From: Bacteroidota bacterium
Lineage (GTDB): Bacteria > Bacteroidota > Bacteroidia > Flavobacteriales_D > Sanyastnellaceae
Assembly (NCBI GenBank): GCA_027624855.1
Contig: JAQBTQ010000003.1
Coordinates: forward strand, 1-64,000
Reading direction: 5' to 3'
DNA length: 64,000 nt
Shown here: positions 39,633 through 44,710 of the stretch, piece after piece
Layout: each line of letters begins with the position of its first letter
How positions within the stretch are numbered: the stretch's first letter is position 1
Program-made: the position numbers and the translations under genes
Notes under the pieces: model-generated
What the model was told of the DNA's origin: nothing
Database searches by the model: none
What the model saw: the letters and a program-made list of their open reading frames with translations, nothing else

Positions 39633-39709
<77 letters not shown>

Positions 39710-39723
39710 CCCACGACGCAACG

Positions 39724-39752
39724 ACGGCGTTCCGAAAGGGGCGCCGTTTTTT
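39724..39752 (+). terminator. Rho-independent terminator of tRNA-Ala
   Basis: ACGGCGTTCC (39724-39733) pairs with GGGGCGCCGT (39738-39747) around a GAAA tetraloop, followed by a run of six T residues (39747-39752). It ends 34 bases before the stop of the convergent sulfotransferase-DinB gene. Confidence 0.9.
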
Positions 39753-39786
39753 GTTGGTCTTCGTTCTTTCTCCGCTTATTCTCCCC

Positions 39787-41277
39787 TCAATCCCCCAAAA
39801 TCCGCCGCAAATAATCGAGTTGGCCGCGGTGCCGCTGAAAGTGGCTGACCATCTGTAACATGAAAAAACGCACGGTGCGGCCTTGGTGATGAGGCGGGGG
39901 ATTGGGCATCTCTTCATTGAGGCGGTTGGGGTCGAGGCCGGTGAGGGCGGCTTCGACAGCGGCGGCAGTGGCTTTAATCTCGGCGACGAGTTCGTCGTGG
40001 GTGAGCCCGCGGGTGCTGAATTCGGCTTCGCGTTGCCGAACGTAGCCGTCGCCACCGAGGACGGCGCCGAAGAAGTGCCGCAAATTGCCACAGAGGTGCC
40101 ACGCCAAGGTGCCCACAGAATTGTTGATGCCTGGCACGGTTTCCCACAGTTTGTCGGCCGGTGTTTTACGCACTTCATCGGCCATGACGTGCAGGTCACG
40201 AACCAGGATTTCCGAAACGTCCAACGGAAATTGGTTCGAAGTGGTGGTCGAGTCTTCTGCGTTGAGGCGGTTTATTTCCGAACTCAGGCTCGGAAAATCG
40301 TTCCAATTGGGTCCTCCGGCGTACCTGTCGCCCCACAGCCGCTGGGATTTTTCGTTGATGGCTTCTTGAACAGATTCCGACAGCACTTCTTGCCATTCGT
40401 CGGTTCTGCCCTTGCGGAAGAAGACATTGGGATTGAAATGAAAGCTCTGGGGGTTCTCCACGATGCTTTGTTTCATGGTGTTGAACTCGGTGGCTGCGAT
40501 GACCTGCTCGAGGACTTCATCCGGGACGTGTTTGTGCGGAGCTAGGAAGCGGGCGAGGAGCCGCGCGGCGTTGAGTTTGTCCTCGACCAACTCTTCGTAG
40601 CGTAAGAAAATGGCCTGCTCGATTTTAATCTCCGAGCGCGCCTTGTTCATCCAGCTCAACGCATGCTCATGGTAACCTCCGAAGTAAAGCTTGCCTTGGA
40701 CAAAGTACTCGGCCAAAGCTTCTATCGTCATGTCCTGGTTCGCTCCCAGCAGCGGGTGCTTTTTGTAGAAGTGGAACTGGCTCACGATGGCCGCGCGCGG
40801 GTCACGCACGACGATGATGAAGCGCGTTTTGGGGTGGATTCGGTGAACCGGCAGGTCCTCCCGGCAGCAATGGGTGTACCAAACGCGGGGGTGGCCCTTG
40901 GTTTCTTCGATCCAATCAAAAATCGATTCGACGCCGTGCTGAGACGCCGTGACTTCGGGCCAACGCACCGTGCCGTGTCCGATGTCGCCGTTGGCGAGGC
41001 CCGAACCTTCAGGGAAATCGTGCGTCGCACGCAACAGCTCGACCACGAATTTTTTGGTGAGGTGCGTGCCCACTTTTTGGTGGGTGCAGATGATGATGTC
41101 GTGCTCGTCGGTATGCCACTCGTTCATCAGCCGCTTCGTCGCATCGATGCTGATGAACGGCGGGTAGCGCTTGCCCCGGAACTTTTGGTAAATCAAGCCC
41201 AATTCCGGAATGCGCTCCGTGGGCCCAAATACGTCGAGCGACGGCTTGTCGCCGGAATAGGCCGTCTCCTGGCTCAT
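39787..41277 (-). CDS. Sulfotransferase fused to a C-terminal DinB-like domain
   Basis: The start is the ATG at 41277, whose ATGA overlaps the stop of the upstream methyltransferase. The 496-residue protein has a PAPS-dependent sulfotransferase domain (about 1-330): 5'-phosphosulfate loop ICTHQKVGTH (63-72), 3'-phosphate motif VVRDPRAAIVSQ (156-167) and the RKGRTDEW segment (288-295) matching the conserved RKGxxGDWK. A hydrophilic linker (about 335-352) leads to a four-helix DinB/DUF664-type domain (about 353-496) with candidate metal-ligand histidines His394, His479 and His483. The substrate is unknown. The DinB-like superfamily includes thiol-S-transferases. The DNA is visibly richer in G+C than its surroundings. 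Confidence 0.85.
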   Translation of the reverse strand: MSQETAYSGDKPSLDVFGPTERIPELGLIYQKFRGKRYPPFISIDATKRLMNEWHTDEHDIIICTHQKVGTHLTKKFVVELLRATHDFPEGSGLANGDIGHGTVRWPEVTASQHGVESIFDWIEETKGHPRVWYTHCCREDLPVHRIHPKTRFIIVVRDPRAAIVSQFHFYKKHPLLGANQDMTIEALAEYFVQGKLYFGGYHEHALSWMNKARSEIKIEQAIFLRYEELVEDKLNAARLLARFLAPHKHVPDEVLEQVIAATEFNTMKQSIVENPQSFHFNPNVFFRKGRTDEWQEVLSESVQEAINEKSQRLWGDRYAGGPNWNDFPSLSSEINRLNAEDSTTTSNQFPLDVSEILVRDLHVMADEVRKTPADKLWETVPGINNSVGTLAWHLCGNLRHFFGAVLGGDGYVRQREAEFSTRGLTHDELVAEIKATAAAVEAALTGLDPNRLNEEMPNPPPHHQGRTVRFFMLQMVSHFQRHRGQLDYLRRILGD

Positions 41278-41894
41278 GCTGAGAAGTCTTTGGGCAGCCG
41301 GCACACCAGCAAGCCGCACTCTGTGGGCACTATGCGGTGCAGCAATCCGTGTTCAACAAACCAGTCCAAAAACGATTGGCACTCCGCCTGCCGGTCCGTG
41401 ACGTTATCCGCCAACAATACCGTCCCGGGCCCGATGAGTCCGCGGTCAATCAACGCGAGCAGTTGCTCGTGGTACAGGCTCTTCTGTGCATCGAAAAAGA
41501 CCATGTCGTAAGGCGTGTCGAGCAGCTCCCGGATCACGGCGCCGGCCTCGCCGCAAAGCACCTTCATCGGCACGCCGAGTTTGTCCATGCGCTCCTGTGT
41601 TGCCGACGCGACTTCTTCGTGGAATTCGATGGTGTCCATGTGGACCGCATTCCAATCCTCCGAGCCAGCGATGAAGTAGAGCGACGACAGTCCGTGAGCC
41701 GTGCCGATTTCGAGGATGCGCTTCGGACTGTTCGCCATCACAATGGCCTCGATGATGGGGCCGGTATCGGACCGGATGGGGTTGCGCCAACCGTGGCGTC
41801 CGTCGGCGTTGGCGTAGCTCTCGCCGTGCTTCTCAAACGTCTCGAGGTTGTCGATTTCGGTTTGGACGGCTTGTCGTTGAGAGGATTGGTTCAT
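41274..41894 (-). CDS. Class I SAM-dependent O-methyltransferase-like protein
   Basis: The 206-residue product has a Rossmann-type SAM-binding fold: motif I ILEIGTAHGLSSL (about 60-72), an acidic residue after strand 2 (MDTIE), and DMVFFDAQKSLY (about 130-141), close to the FIDAxKxxY pattern of catechol O-methyltransferase-like enzymes. LLADNV follows as a motif III. It would methylate a small molecule, perhaps an aromatic hydroxyl; the substrate is not known. It sits between a membrane methyltransferase and the sulfotransferase fusion, overlapping the latter by ATGA, so the three probably modify one product. Confidence 0.82.
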   Translation of the reverse strand: MNQSSQRQAVQTEIDNLETFEKHGESYANADGRHGWRNPIRSDTGPIIEAIVMANSPKRILEIGTAHGLSSLYFIAGSEDWNAVHMDTIEFHEEVASATQERMDKLGVPMKVLCGEAGAVIRELLDTPYDMVFFDAQKSLYHEQLLALIDRGLIGPGTVLLADNVTDRQAECQSFLDWFVEHGLLHRIVPTECGLLVCRLPKDFSA

Positions 41895-41956
41895 TCTACT
41901 TCCATTTCAGCAGGAAGTTAATAGAATTCAAACCAAATAACGCATCCAAATTACTC

Positions 41957-42706
41957 TCACCGCCCCTCGACATGCAGCACGCGGGTGAACCGCTTGAGAC
42001 TGCGTAGCGTGAAGAATATAATGAACGTGGCGAGCAGCGTGTATTGCCAAAACGGCACGAGGATGTCCACCCACGCGTCGGCACCGCGCACCGCGTTTTT
42101 TGCAGCTGAGATGACGGCGAGGCTCACGAAAATGGCGAAGAAGCCGTTGTATTCGCGCTTCAGGACGTTGCGCAGGGAAAACGCGACATCCGGCGCGGTC
42201 CAACGCAGGTTGCGCGGCCAAAATGATGGTACGTCCACCGACCAATCCAGGTAGGCTTGGCCGAATTTGCCGCGCAGGAAAGCTTCTTCAGCGAACATGA
42301 TGCGCTCGTAGTACAGCCAATAAATAAGGCTGCACACCACCGTGAACCACACGTTGCCCACGTAGATCATGATACCCAGCCACATGAAGTAGTTGCCGAG
42401 GTAGAGGGGGTGGCGTACGAGGCTGTACATGCCCCTCGTGTTCAGGACTTCGGCGATTTGGCCGTCCTTGGTGTTGCGGCCCGAGGTGCCGCGCGGCGTG
42501 TAGCCGATGGTGAGGGCGCGGATGAGTTGGCCGAATAAGGAAATCGCAATGCAGGCGACCGCTGAAACCGGGTCAAAGGTTTGGAAAAAGGGGTCGAGTT
42601 GAAAGCCAATAATGGCCGCCATGAAGACGTACAACAAAAGGGGGAAGAAGGATCGGCCTTTGAAGAGCCAATTGCCAGTTTTCTCAAATTCTTCTATCAG
42701 CGCCAT
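41957..42706 (-). CDS. Membrane-bound methyltransferase of the ICMT/PEMT superfamily
   Basis: The 249-residue product has several membrane helices and the family signature RGMYSLVRHPLYLGNY, followed about 25 residues later by YYERIMFAEEAFLRGKFGQAYLDW, the ExxxL..(F/Y)G..Y..Y segment typical of isoprenylcysteine carboxyl methyltransferase-like and phospholipid methyltransferase proteins. Bacterial members methylate lipids or membrane-bound small molecules with SAM. It is the first gene of the GC-rich trio; a loose TTTG / TATCTTGC pair on the minus strand just upstream could be its promoter. The substrate is unknown. Confidence 0.82.
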   Translation of the reverse strand: MALIEEFEKTGNWLFKGRSFFPLLLYVFMAAIIGFQLDPFFQTFDPVSAVACIAISLFGQLIRALTIGYTPRGTSGRNTKDGQIAEVLNTRGMYSLVRHPLYLGNYFMWLGIMIYVGNVWFTVVCSLIYWLYYERIMFAEEAFLRGKFGQAYLDWSVDVPSFWPRNLRWTAPDVAFSLRNVLKREYNGFFAIFVSLAVISAAKNAVRGADAWVDILVPFWQYTLLATFIIFFTLRSLKRFTRVLHVEGR

Positions 42707-42751: not shown

Positions 42752-44710
42752 TCAGTACCGAAGGATCAAACGTGAGCTGGTGCTATTTTCCAATTCGTCT
42801 GTGCTCAAAACAGTCATCCATGCGACTGTCGTACTCAAAGTGCCATTTTCACCTGGATCACCATTGAAGCAGCCATCCCCTTGGCAACCTATGCAGGCGC
42901 CAGAGCCTCCAATACCTCCGGTAATTTCAGCCAATACTTCGCCATTCAAAAGCAGTTGGGTGGTTCCTCCATCAGCTCCGTTTGATGCTGGCCCGCAGTC
43001 CCAATTGGTCCAACCTGTGAGCCCGGGATTGCACGTGATCAATTCCCCAGAATCTGAACCTGCAGCTGCATGATTTAATTCAATTACATCGCCTTGCGCC
43101 AAGTTGTAAATCATGCTTACAACTTTTAGCGCCCGACCACCCTGGCCTCCAGTAGCATCACACAAATTACAGGAGCTCGCACCCAATGTTTGCCCACAGA
43201 TATCTCCTCCTTTTCCACCTGATGCTCCCCACAGTTCAACTGAAAGGGTAGAAATTGCATTTTCAACAGTGAATACATTGCCGTCATTGTTTGAGTCAAA
43301 GACTCCATGAACGGATGGAGAAAAGGCCGACCCACCAGACAATGCTTCAATAAATTCTTGCTCCGTCCCTTCGTTTCCTAGATTCAGCCAGACTTGATAA
43401 GCGCTAATCCCTTCAGGTCCTTGTTCACCCTGAGGTCCTTGTTCACCCTGAGGTCCTTGTTCACCCTGAGGTCCTTGTTCACCTTGTGGTCCTTGCGGTC
43501 CCTCAGGTCCGGTTGTTCCATCCGCTCCGTCTATACCGGGTAATCCTTGTTCACCCTGAGGTCCCTGAGGTCCCTGAGGTCCCTGAGGTCCTTGCGGTCC
43601 CTCAGGTCCGGTTGCTCCATCCGCACCATTTAAACCGGGTAATCCTTGTTCGCCCTGCAGTCCCTGTGGTCCTTGTGGTCCCTCAGGTCCGATGGCTCCC
43701 TCAGCTCCGTCTAAACCGGGCAATCCTTGTTCGCCTTGCGGTCCTTGCGGTCCCTCAGGTCCGATGGCTCCATCCGCTCCGTCTAAACCTGGCAATCCTT
43801 GTTCGCCCTGAGGTCCCTGCGGTCCTTGTTCACCCTGCGGCCCTTGCGGTCCATCCGCTCCGTCTAAACCGGGTAATCCTTGTTCGCCCTGTGGTCCCTG
43901 CGGCCCTTGTTCACCTTGTGGTCCAATCAGGCTCGCCAAAAATTCGGCTTCAGTTCCCACATTGCCATGAGCCACCCAGATTTCATAAGAACTGAATCCA
44001 TTTTCCCCTTGTGGTCCCTCCGGTCCAGTTGCTCCCTCCGCTCCGTCTAAACCGGGCAATCCTTGTTCACCTTGTGGTCCTTGTGGTCCTTGCGGTCCTT
44101 GTGGTCCTTGTGGTCCTTGCGGTCCCTCAGGTCCGGTGGCTCCCTCCGCTCCGTCAAAACCGGGCAATCCTTGTTCGCCCTGCGGTCCTTGCGGTCCCTC
44201 CGGTCCGGTGGCTCCAACCGCGCCATCAATACCTGGTAATCCTTGTTCGCCTTGTGGTCCAATCAGGCTTGCCAAAAAATCAGCAACGGTTCCCTCAAAT
44301 CCTTCTTCTATCCAGAGTTCATAAGCGCTCATCCCATCAGCGCCATCCATGCCATTTGCGCCCGCACTTCCTCCGATGTAAACCGAACTGAAAATGGAAT
44401 TGTCAGGCAACATTAATCGCAACGTGTCACCATCGAGTGCCAACCATTGCAATTCATTTGTTGGGTCTGGATCTAAATCTTGAGGTAAAATCAATAAGCT
44501 GTCCTCCGGTAAGAATTCTGCAGACCACAGCGCCAAAACGGCCGTGAAATCCTCAAAGTTGATCAGGGAATCACAATTCACATCCGGGTTATATGGAATG
44601 CTATCGCACAAATAGGGAATGTCAATCGTTTCTTGCGCTTCCATATCATGGATGGGAACGAACACGAATGCGGTAATCAAAGCAACGATGGCGAAGATGG
44701 AAATGCGCAC
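42752..44710 (-). CDS. Collagen-like secreted protein with Gly-X-Y repeats
   Basis: The start is a GTG at 44710; it opens a signal peptide ([16 protein letters not shown] ... MEAQ) and no in-frame ATG precedes that signal. The 652-residue protein has a dockerin-like calcium loop near the start ([13 protein letters not shown], 43-55), a long Gly-X-Y region (about 150-435, [14 protein letters not shown] units), and a Gly- and Cys-rich C-terminal domain (about 470-652). The Gly-X-Y tract is framed and interrupted by three ~24-residue modules of the pattern SxYxxWxxxGxxGTxxxFxxxLxG (about 128, 239, 436). It is probably a surface fibre or adhesive stalk. It has no T9SS tail. Confidence 0.85.
43400..44260 (-). 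repeat. Collagen-type coding repeat
   Basis: Short units of 9 and 18 bases encoding GPQ, GEQ, GPE and LPG triplets fill this stretch, most uniform at 43425-43510 and 44075-44130, where nearly identical units stand in tandem. The tract is broken once (about 43925-44000) by a 24-residue module. Confidence 0.88.

Follow-up and report, generated by a model that had tools for sequence, protein, structure and literature searches.

A sulfotransferase-DinB fusion protein in a few Bacteroidota joins two genes that form a conserved pair in relatives

The window analysed here, a stretch of 64,000 nucleotides of contig JAQBTQ010000003.1 from a Bacteroidota bacterium of the Sanyastnellaceae, carries a gene in which a sulfotransferase (ST) and a DinB-like domain are fused; such merging is seen in a few Bacteroidota, and it unites two genes that form a conserved pair in relatives. 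The fusion is rare and derived; the conserved unit is the ST-DinB pair, often led by a gene for a catechol-type O-methyltransferase (OMT). The folds are known and their combination is new and functionally suggestive; a literature search, judged by titles and the starts of abstracts, returned no published description of the pair. Since the two enzymes are merged here and lie side by side in relatives, they are suggested to act on the same small molecule. The features of the region are as follows.

39635..39713, + strand: tRNA-Ala(ggc), bordering the insertion site that is empty in G013
39787..41277, - strand: fused ST-DinB gene, a single open frame from ATG 41277 to the stop at 39787, 496 aa
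39796..40206, - strand: DinB/S-transferase-like domain, residues 358-494, from Pfam profiles and structure matches
39829..39843, - strand: candidate metal ligands H479 and H483 (HxxxH), within HxxxHxGQ in 19/19 paired DinBs
39880..39900, - strand: PPPHHQG, including H464 and the subfamily motif P-x-x-H-x-G, the latter in 19/19 paired DinBs
40096..40098, - strand: candidate metal ligand H394, kept in 19/19 paired DinBs
40207..40341, - strand: linker, residues 313-357, with pLDDT <50 at 326-346
40342..41103, - strand: sulfotransferase domain, residues 59-312, Pfam Sulfotransfer_1, E 4.8e-32
41059..41085, - strand: PAPS-loop position THQKVGTHL, residues 65-73
41274..41894, - strand: catechol-type OMT (Methyltransf_3 and Methyltransf_24), upstream of the ST start and overlapping it by 4 bases
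41957..42706, - strand: LmtA/ICMT-like methyltransferase, a native neighbour outside the cassette, 87.6% identical to the gene beside the same tRNA in G013

The fused gene and its two halves

The initial annotation, made from the sequence alone, had described an ST-DinB fusion, and the fusion proved to be real: one frame of 496 aa carries Pfam matches on both halves, and the same fused frame recurs in a second species, G221, with 62% identity over query residues 168-495 (the G221 contig stops inside the frame, its first 167 residues lying outside the view). The linkers of the two proteins resemble each other. A frameshift, of which the initial annotation had warned, or an assembly slip in the fused gene is ruled out, because the second species has the fused frame too. 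An upstream GTG at 41319 would give a protein of 510 aa; the ATG at 41277 is favoured as the start by its 4-base overlap with the stop of the OMT gene.

The matches to Sulfotransfer_1 (111.8 bits against a curated cut-off of 22) in the N-terminal half and to DinB_2 (residues 369-487, 1.4e-9), MST (PF04978; residues 358-493, 3.3e-9; 37.8 bits against 27) and DUF1572 (residues 359-494, 2.1e-7) in the C-terminal half all exceed their curated cut-offs. Those to MDMPI_N and DinB (PF05163) fall below theirs, and the match to TIGR03083, a profile of mycothiol-dependent enzymes, is short of its cut-off of 50 at 16.9 bits. The AlphaFold2 model of the full protein has a mean pLDDT of 83 and a pTM of 0.65, and the DinB half modelled alone reaches a pLDDT of 92. 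Structure prediction, which had been proposed as a check, points to a SULT fold for the ST half and to a four-helix fold for the DinB half.

In the Foldseek search with the full predicted model the best match was SULT7A1 (5x2b_E, TMt 0.81), the matches being SULT enzymes. With the cytosolic SULTs (SULT1C2, SULT7A1, SULT1E1) the ST half shares the predicted fold (~300 alignment columns) and the Y-x-H, RDP and FFRxG positions; it differs from them in its ~16-25% identity in the structure matches, in its THQKVGT loop and in being paired with or fused to a DinB protein. Y-x-H, presumably the position of the catalytic histidine, and RDP[RK] are present in 18/18 aligned ST rows covering those positions, a count that rests on the alignment, the Y-x-H pattern by itself not being specific; FFRxG, which together with RDP we take to be the 3'-phosphate motifs, is present in 19/19 rows. 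HQKVGTHL is kept in 17/17 rows spanning the loop position, which G221 and G253 do not reach. The initial annotation was right about conserved sulfotransferase motifs; at the 5'-phosphosulfate (PAPS) loop the protein has THQKVGT where the usual consensus is TYPKSGT, a departure that counts against the function proposed below.

In the case of the DinB half, only the DUF664 protein 2ou6 passed E 0.001 in Foldseek, followed by a mycothiol S-transferase at 0.002. VIA-align placed the mycothiol S-transferase of M. tuberculosis (8f5v_A, with mycothiol and Zn) first, with Z 16.1 and an rmsd of 2.5 over 146 residues; for BstA it gave Z 12.6 and an rmsd of 3.0 over 137 residues, a Z that, according to VIA-align, is within the range that helical bundles can reach through a common arrangement alone. 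The DinB half is thus predicted to have the four-helix fold of the DinB/S-transferase-like superfamily. The initial annotation was right to link this half to thiol transferases, and the three histidines it had picked as candidate metal ligands, H394, H479 and H483, are present in 19/19 paired rows. The three histidines and the four-helix fold are common to the mycothiol S-transferase (8f5v), S. aureus BstA (5wk0) and the D. radiodurans DUF664 protein (2ou6), to which identity is ~12-26%; the paired DinBs differ from them in the motif P-x-x-H-x-G and in having a sulfotransferase partner. BstA of B. subtilis has the three histidines as well, according to a passage of PMC5815605.

The stand-alone DinB set comprised 27 loci, and P-x-x-H-x-G occurs in 19/19 paired DinBs against 0/27 stand-alone ones (26 counted and L049 read by eye, the latter with HMAGSL in place of a GNL-type motif). 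The first tree took the 24 stand-alone DinBs that show one of five HxGQ spellings, so that an HxGQ count among these 24 is circular. The three loci outside this set (L040, L046 and L049) likewise have no P-x-x-H-x-G, and a second tree that took in L040 and L046 gave an unchanged result: one branch separates the 19 paired DinBs, with a support of 99/98 against 24 stand-alone rows and 100/99 against 26. Because this branch and the motif set them apart, the paired DinBs form a subfamily of their own and are not just any DinB proteins.

Conservation of the pair and its neighbours

A contig scan identified five relatives (L002-L006), in each of which ST and DinB are encoded by two adjacent genes. 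In an order sample of 399 genomes, 35 matched at E 1e-20, 19 of them with the ST half and 16 with a DinB-half match only, and in all 19 ST-bearing genomes a DinB gene lies beside the ST gene or is fused to it. A family search of 114 genomes detected the ST half in 14, the window's genome included, and the fused form in two. In the phylum sample (395 genomes, E 1e-25) the 15 matching genomes were the window's genome and 14 with the DinB half alone. The initial annotation had left room for a widely occurring fusion; among the 19 loci whose junctions were read, two are fused (the window and G221) and 17 are split. These loci represent L002 and 18 of the 19 pair-bearing genomes, G175 being omitted (its contig ends in DinB, with unread bases) and L003-L006 being counted once, as the loci of G030, G113, G267 and G253. 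The split genes overlap or sit at most ~35 bases apart, with a 4-base ATGA overlap in nine of the 17.

The ST tree joins the window to G221 (100/98) and has G029 as their nearest relative (99/96); the DinB tree conflicts with this, placing G221 and G029 together (98/82) and the window outside. A single fusion event for the window and G221 is the simplest reading, and the conflict could be explained by a later split in G029 or by plain error.

Homologues of the OMT were detected in 12 of the 399 genomes, 10 of them pair-bearing (hypergeometric 2.3e-13, relatedness ignored). The gene directly precedes ST in eight of the 12, and also in L002, with gaps of -4 to 40 bases; it stands at the contig edge in G206 and G271, the next gene being outside the view, and elsewhere in the assembly in G221 and G253. 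As no OMT homologue was found at E 1e-20 in nine of the 19 pair-bearing genomes, the OMT is a frequent and not an essential partner. The aligned OMTs (9/9) have FFDAQK and ADNV, presumably the metal positions, and share an N-terminal stretch that starts with GES/GET-Y and contains GWRNP. The solved-structure relatives of the OMT include catechol O-methyltransferases, with PaMTH1 and COMT among the matches; the aligned OMTs resemble these two in FFDAQK and ADNV and differ from them in the GWRNP stretch, the GES/GET-Y start and the operon with ST-DinB.

In the mapped loci, with families defined by blastp clustering and not all named, the OMT is the only neighbour of the pair shared between genera. 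The loci of genus g10 share neighbours of the pair, which looks like plain synteny. In G113, genes of the TauD type and others (named by eye) adjoin the pair and are absent beside it in the close relative G257; the stretch concerned (L056, 3114-6469), divergent from the pair, has TenA/haem-oxygenase-like, methyltransferase, TauD-like and sterol-desaturase-like genes, also read by eye, and is possibly a biosynthetic cluster. In G177 the OMT-ST-DinB trio is followed by cysD, cysC and cysN (read by eye), of which the first two lie on the other strand and match PF01507 and PF01583, respectively.

The insertion site and the origin of the cassette

The initial annotation had thus recognised the fusion as such and missed the conserved two-gene pair, the frequent upstream OMT and the inserted cassette. 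The LmtA-like gene has a full-length NCBIfam match to the Leptospira lipid A 1-phosphate O-methyltransferase LmtA (2.2e-66), which at 224 bits is below the cut-off of 325. On the same strand and GC-rich, it was considered as an operon member, which is ruled out by its position next to the same tRNA in the cassette-free congener G013; the gene is native, and therefore the cassette consists of OMT and ST-DinB. In G013 the tRNA-Ala, a terminator-like stretch and the LmtA-like gene lie ~0.12 kb apart, with neither OMT nor ST-DinB, and represent the empty site.

Seven congener stretches were compared, of which three, those of G013, G006 and G002, reach the LmtA-like gene and four stop earlier at contig edges. 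The interval between tRNA-Ala(ggc) and this gene (39714-41956 in the window; counterparts L134 in G013, L133 in G006 and L138 in G002) holds a 1307-aa frame in G006 and other small frames in G002, and looks like an insertion hotspot in the genus. The neighbourhood also includes, at 42752-44710, a gene for a protein of 652 aa that has Gly-x-y repeats of the collagen type (PF01391, 9.7e-42).

The GC content of the inserted stretch is 57.4%, against 44.5-49.8% in 2-kb steps outside 40-44 kb (~47% around), and the corresponding regions of G221 and G029 have 60% and 62%. No match was found in any of 21 congeners at E 1e-10. We infer that the cassette came by transfer from another lineage. Phage origin was rejected, with no relative confirmed in viral contigs and none in phage records, and so was plasmid origin, the five plasmid records that matched doing so to the DinB half only. 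The repeat list shows no direct repetition of the tRNA beside the cassette.

Proposed function and alternatives

The reading which we consider probable is that of a rare fusion of a conserved ST-DinB pair, both halves of which modify one small acceptor, the ST half with PAPS and the DinB half with a metal and probably a thiol of the bacillithiol type. The ST half, with its predicted SULT fold, would most likely sulfonate a hydroxyl of the acceptor, with PAPS as the donor. The DinB half would most likely bind a divalent metal via H394, H479 and H483 and use a low-molecular-weight thiol, in all likelihood bacillithiol or N-methyl-bacillithiol if any, in a step on that acceptor. Where the trio is present, the upstream OMT is probably part of the same pathway. 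The suggestion of the initial annotation, that sulfation is joined to a thiol- or metal-dependent step on one substrate, is a reasonable idea.

With regard to the thiol, BshC was detected in 29 of 30 genomes, that of the window included (8.3e-41), and is equally common without the pair (11/11 genomes), so that a bacillithiol-type thiol is likely and not specific to the pair. According to a passage of PMC6282198, N-methyl-bacillithiol is present in a strain of the Bacteroidetes, the phylum has bsh genes, and mycothiol genes are reported from Actinobacteria only.

As for PAPS, APS kinase was detected in 16/19 pair-bearing and 6/11 other genomes (Fisher p 0.10; 17/19 and p 0.07 if the marginal match of G257 is counted), and does not discriminate the pair-bearing genomes. 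In the window's genome G000 (96.6% complete, 40 contigs) neither APS kinase nor CysD was detected, the single PF01507 match, a 229-aa frame, being read as CysH-like; this counts against PAPS-dependent work there, unless the assembly misses genes. ATP sulfurylase (PF01747) matched 0/10 genomes, some of these with cysD, and its absence from G000 consequently says little. Short, divergent APS-kinase-like proteins (PF01583, E ~1e-19 to 1e-23) are encoded near cysD in L078 (G029), L079 (G221), L081 (G009) and L083 (G113), cysD being recognised by PF01507 in the first three genomes and by eye in G113.

The missing genes raise the possibility, to which we give a low probability, that the gene is a recent and cryptic arrival in a genome where PAPS cannot be made. 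The GC content of 57% against ~47% around and the lack of a match in 21 congeners agree with such an arrival; however, the frame, the motifs and the 4-base overlap are intact, an APS kinase match is present in five of the eight congeners tested, and a small sulfate cluster may be absent from the assembly only. Unlikely, yet deserving somewhat more weight, is a detoxification cassette in which OMT, ST and DinB conjugate catechols or phenols in parallel with methyl, sulfate and thiol, as in phase II metabolism. SULT enzymes have a role in detoxification, and catechol O-methyltransferases are among the solved-structure relatives of the OMT. The location of the cassette in an insertion hotspot would fit as well. 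Thiol transferases, too, are usually linked to detoxification, according to a passage of PMC5815605. Parallel conjugators, however, have no need of fusion or gene overlap, and the OMT is the sole gene to recur beside the pair across genera among the mapped neighbours.

It is also doubtful that the DinB half works without thiol transfer, be it as a metal-dependent enzyme of another kind or as a domain that docks to or regulates the ST. The superfamily is described in a passage of PMC5815605 as united by fold rather than sequence, with one common activity unclear, and the motif with H464 is peculiar to paired DinBs; against this, all three metal-type histidines are kept in 19/19 paired DinBs, and the eight S-transferase-like proteins of B. 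subtilis tested in the same source were all metal-dependent bacillithiol transferases. The likelihoods attached to the preferred reading and to its rivals overlap and are not exclusive shares.

EgtB/OvoA-type sulfoxide synthases and LmbV likewise combine a DinB domain with another domain. The latter is, to our knowledge, not a sulfotransferase. The structures of EgtB and OvsA are among the VIA-align matches of the DinB half, and a passage of PMC5815605 names EgtB and LmbV; in two-domain members, according to the same source, the choice of the non-thiol co-substrate most likely lies with the second domain.

A more specific form of the shared-acceptor reading, which we regard as improbable, is that the ST makes a sulfate ester from the acceptor hydroxyl and the DinB half then puts a bacillithiol-type thiolate, bound to the metal, in the place of the sulfate. 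The departure of the sulfate would be helped by H464 of P-x-x-H-x-G, and the fusion would channel a labile sulfate ester. The sorghum sulfotransferase LGS1 (structure 22ga, among the matches) has the SULT fold predicted for the ST half, and for it the sulfate has been proposed to make the next step possible by acting as a leaving group (PMC8713700); LGS1 differs in being a plant enzyme and in the reaction, a ring closure, and the passages of that paper on it mention no DinB partner.

The fusion and the conserved adjacency link the two enzymes and provide a handle on the role of a whole DinB subfamily in Bacteroidota. If the sulfation and the thiol transfer follow one another, the pair would represent a new way to put sulfur into a molecule, and if the sulfate is indeed displaced by the thiolate, one polypeptide would convert C-OH to C-S by a route driven by PAPS.
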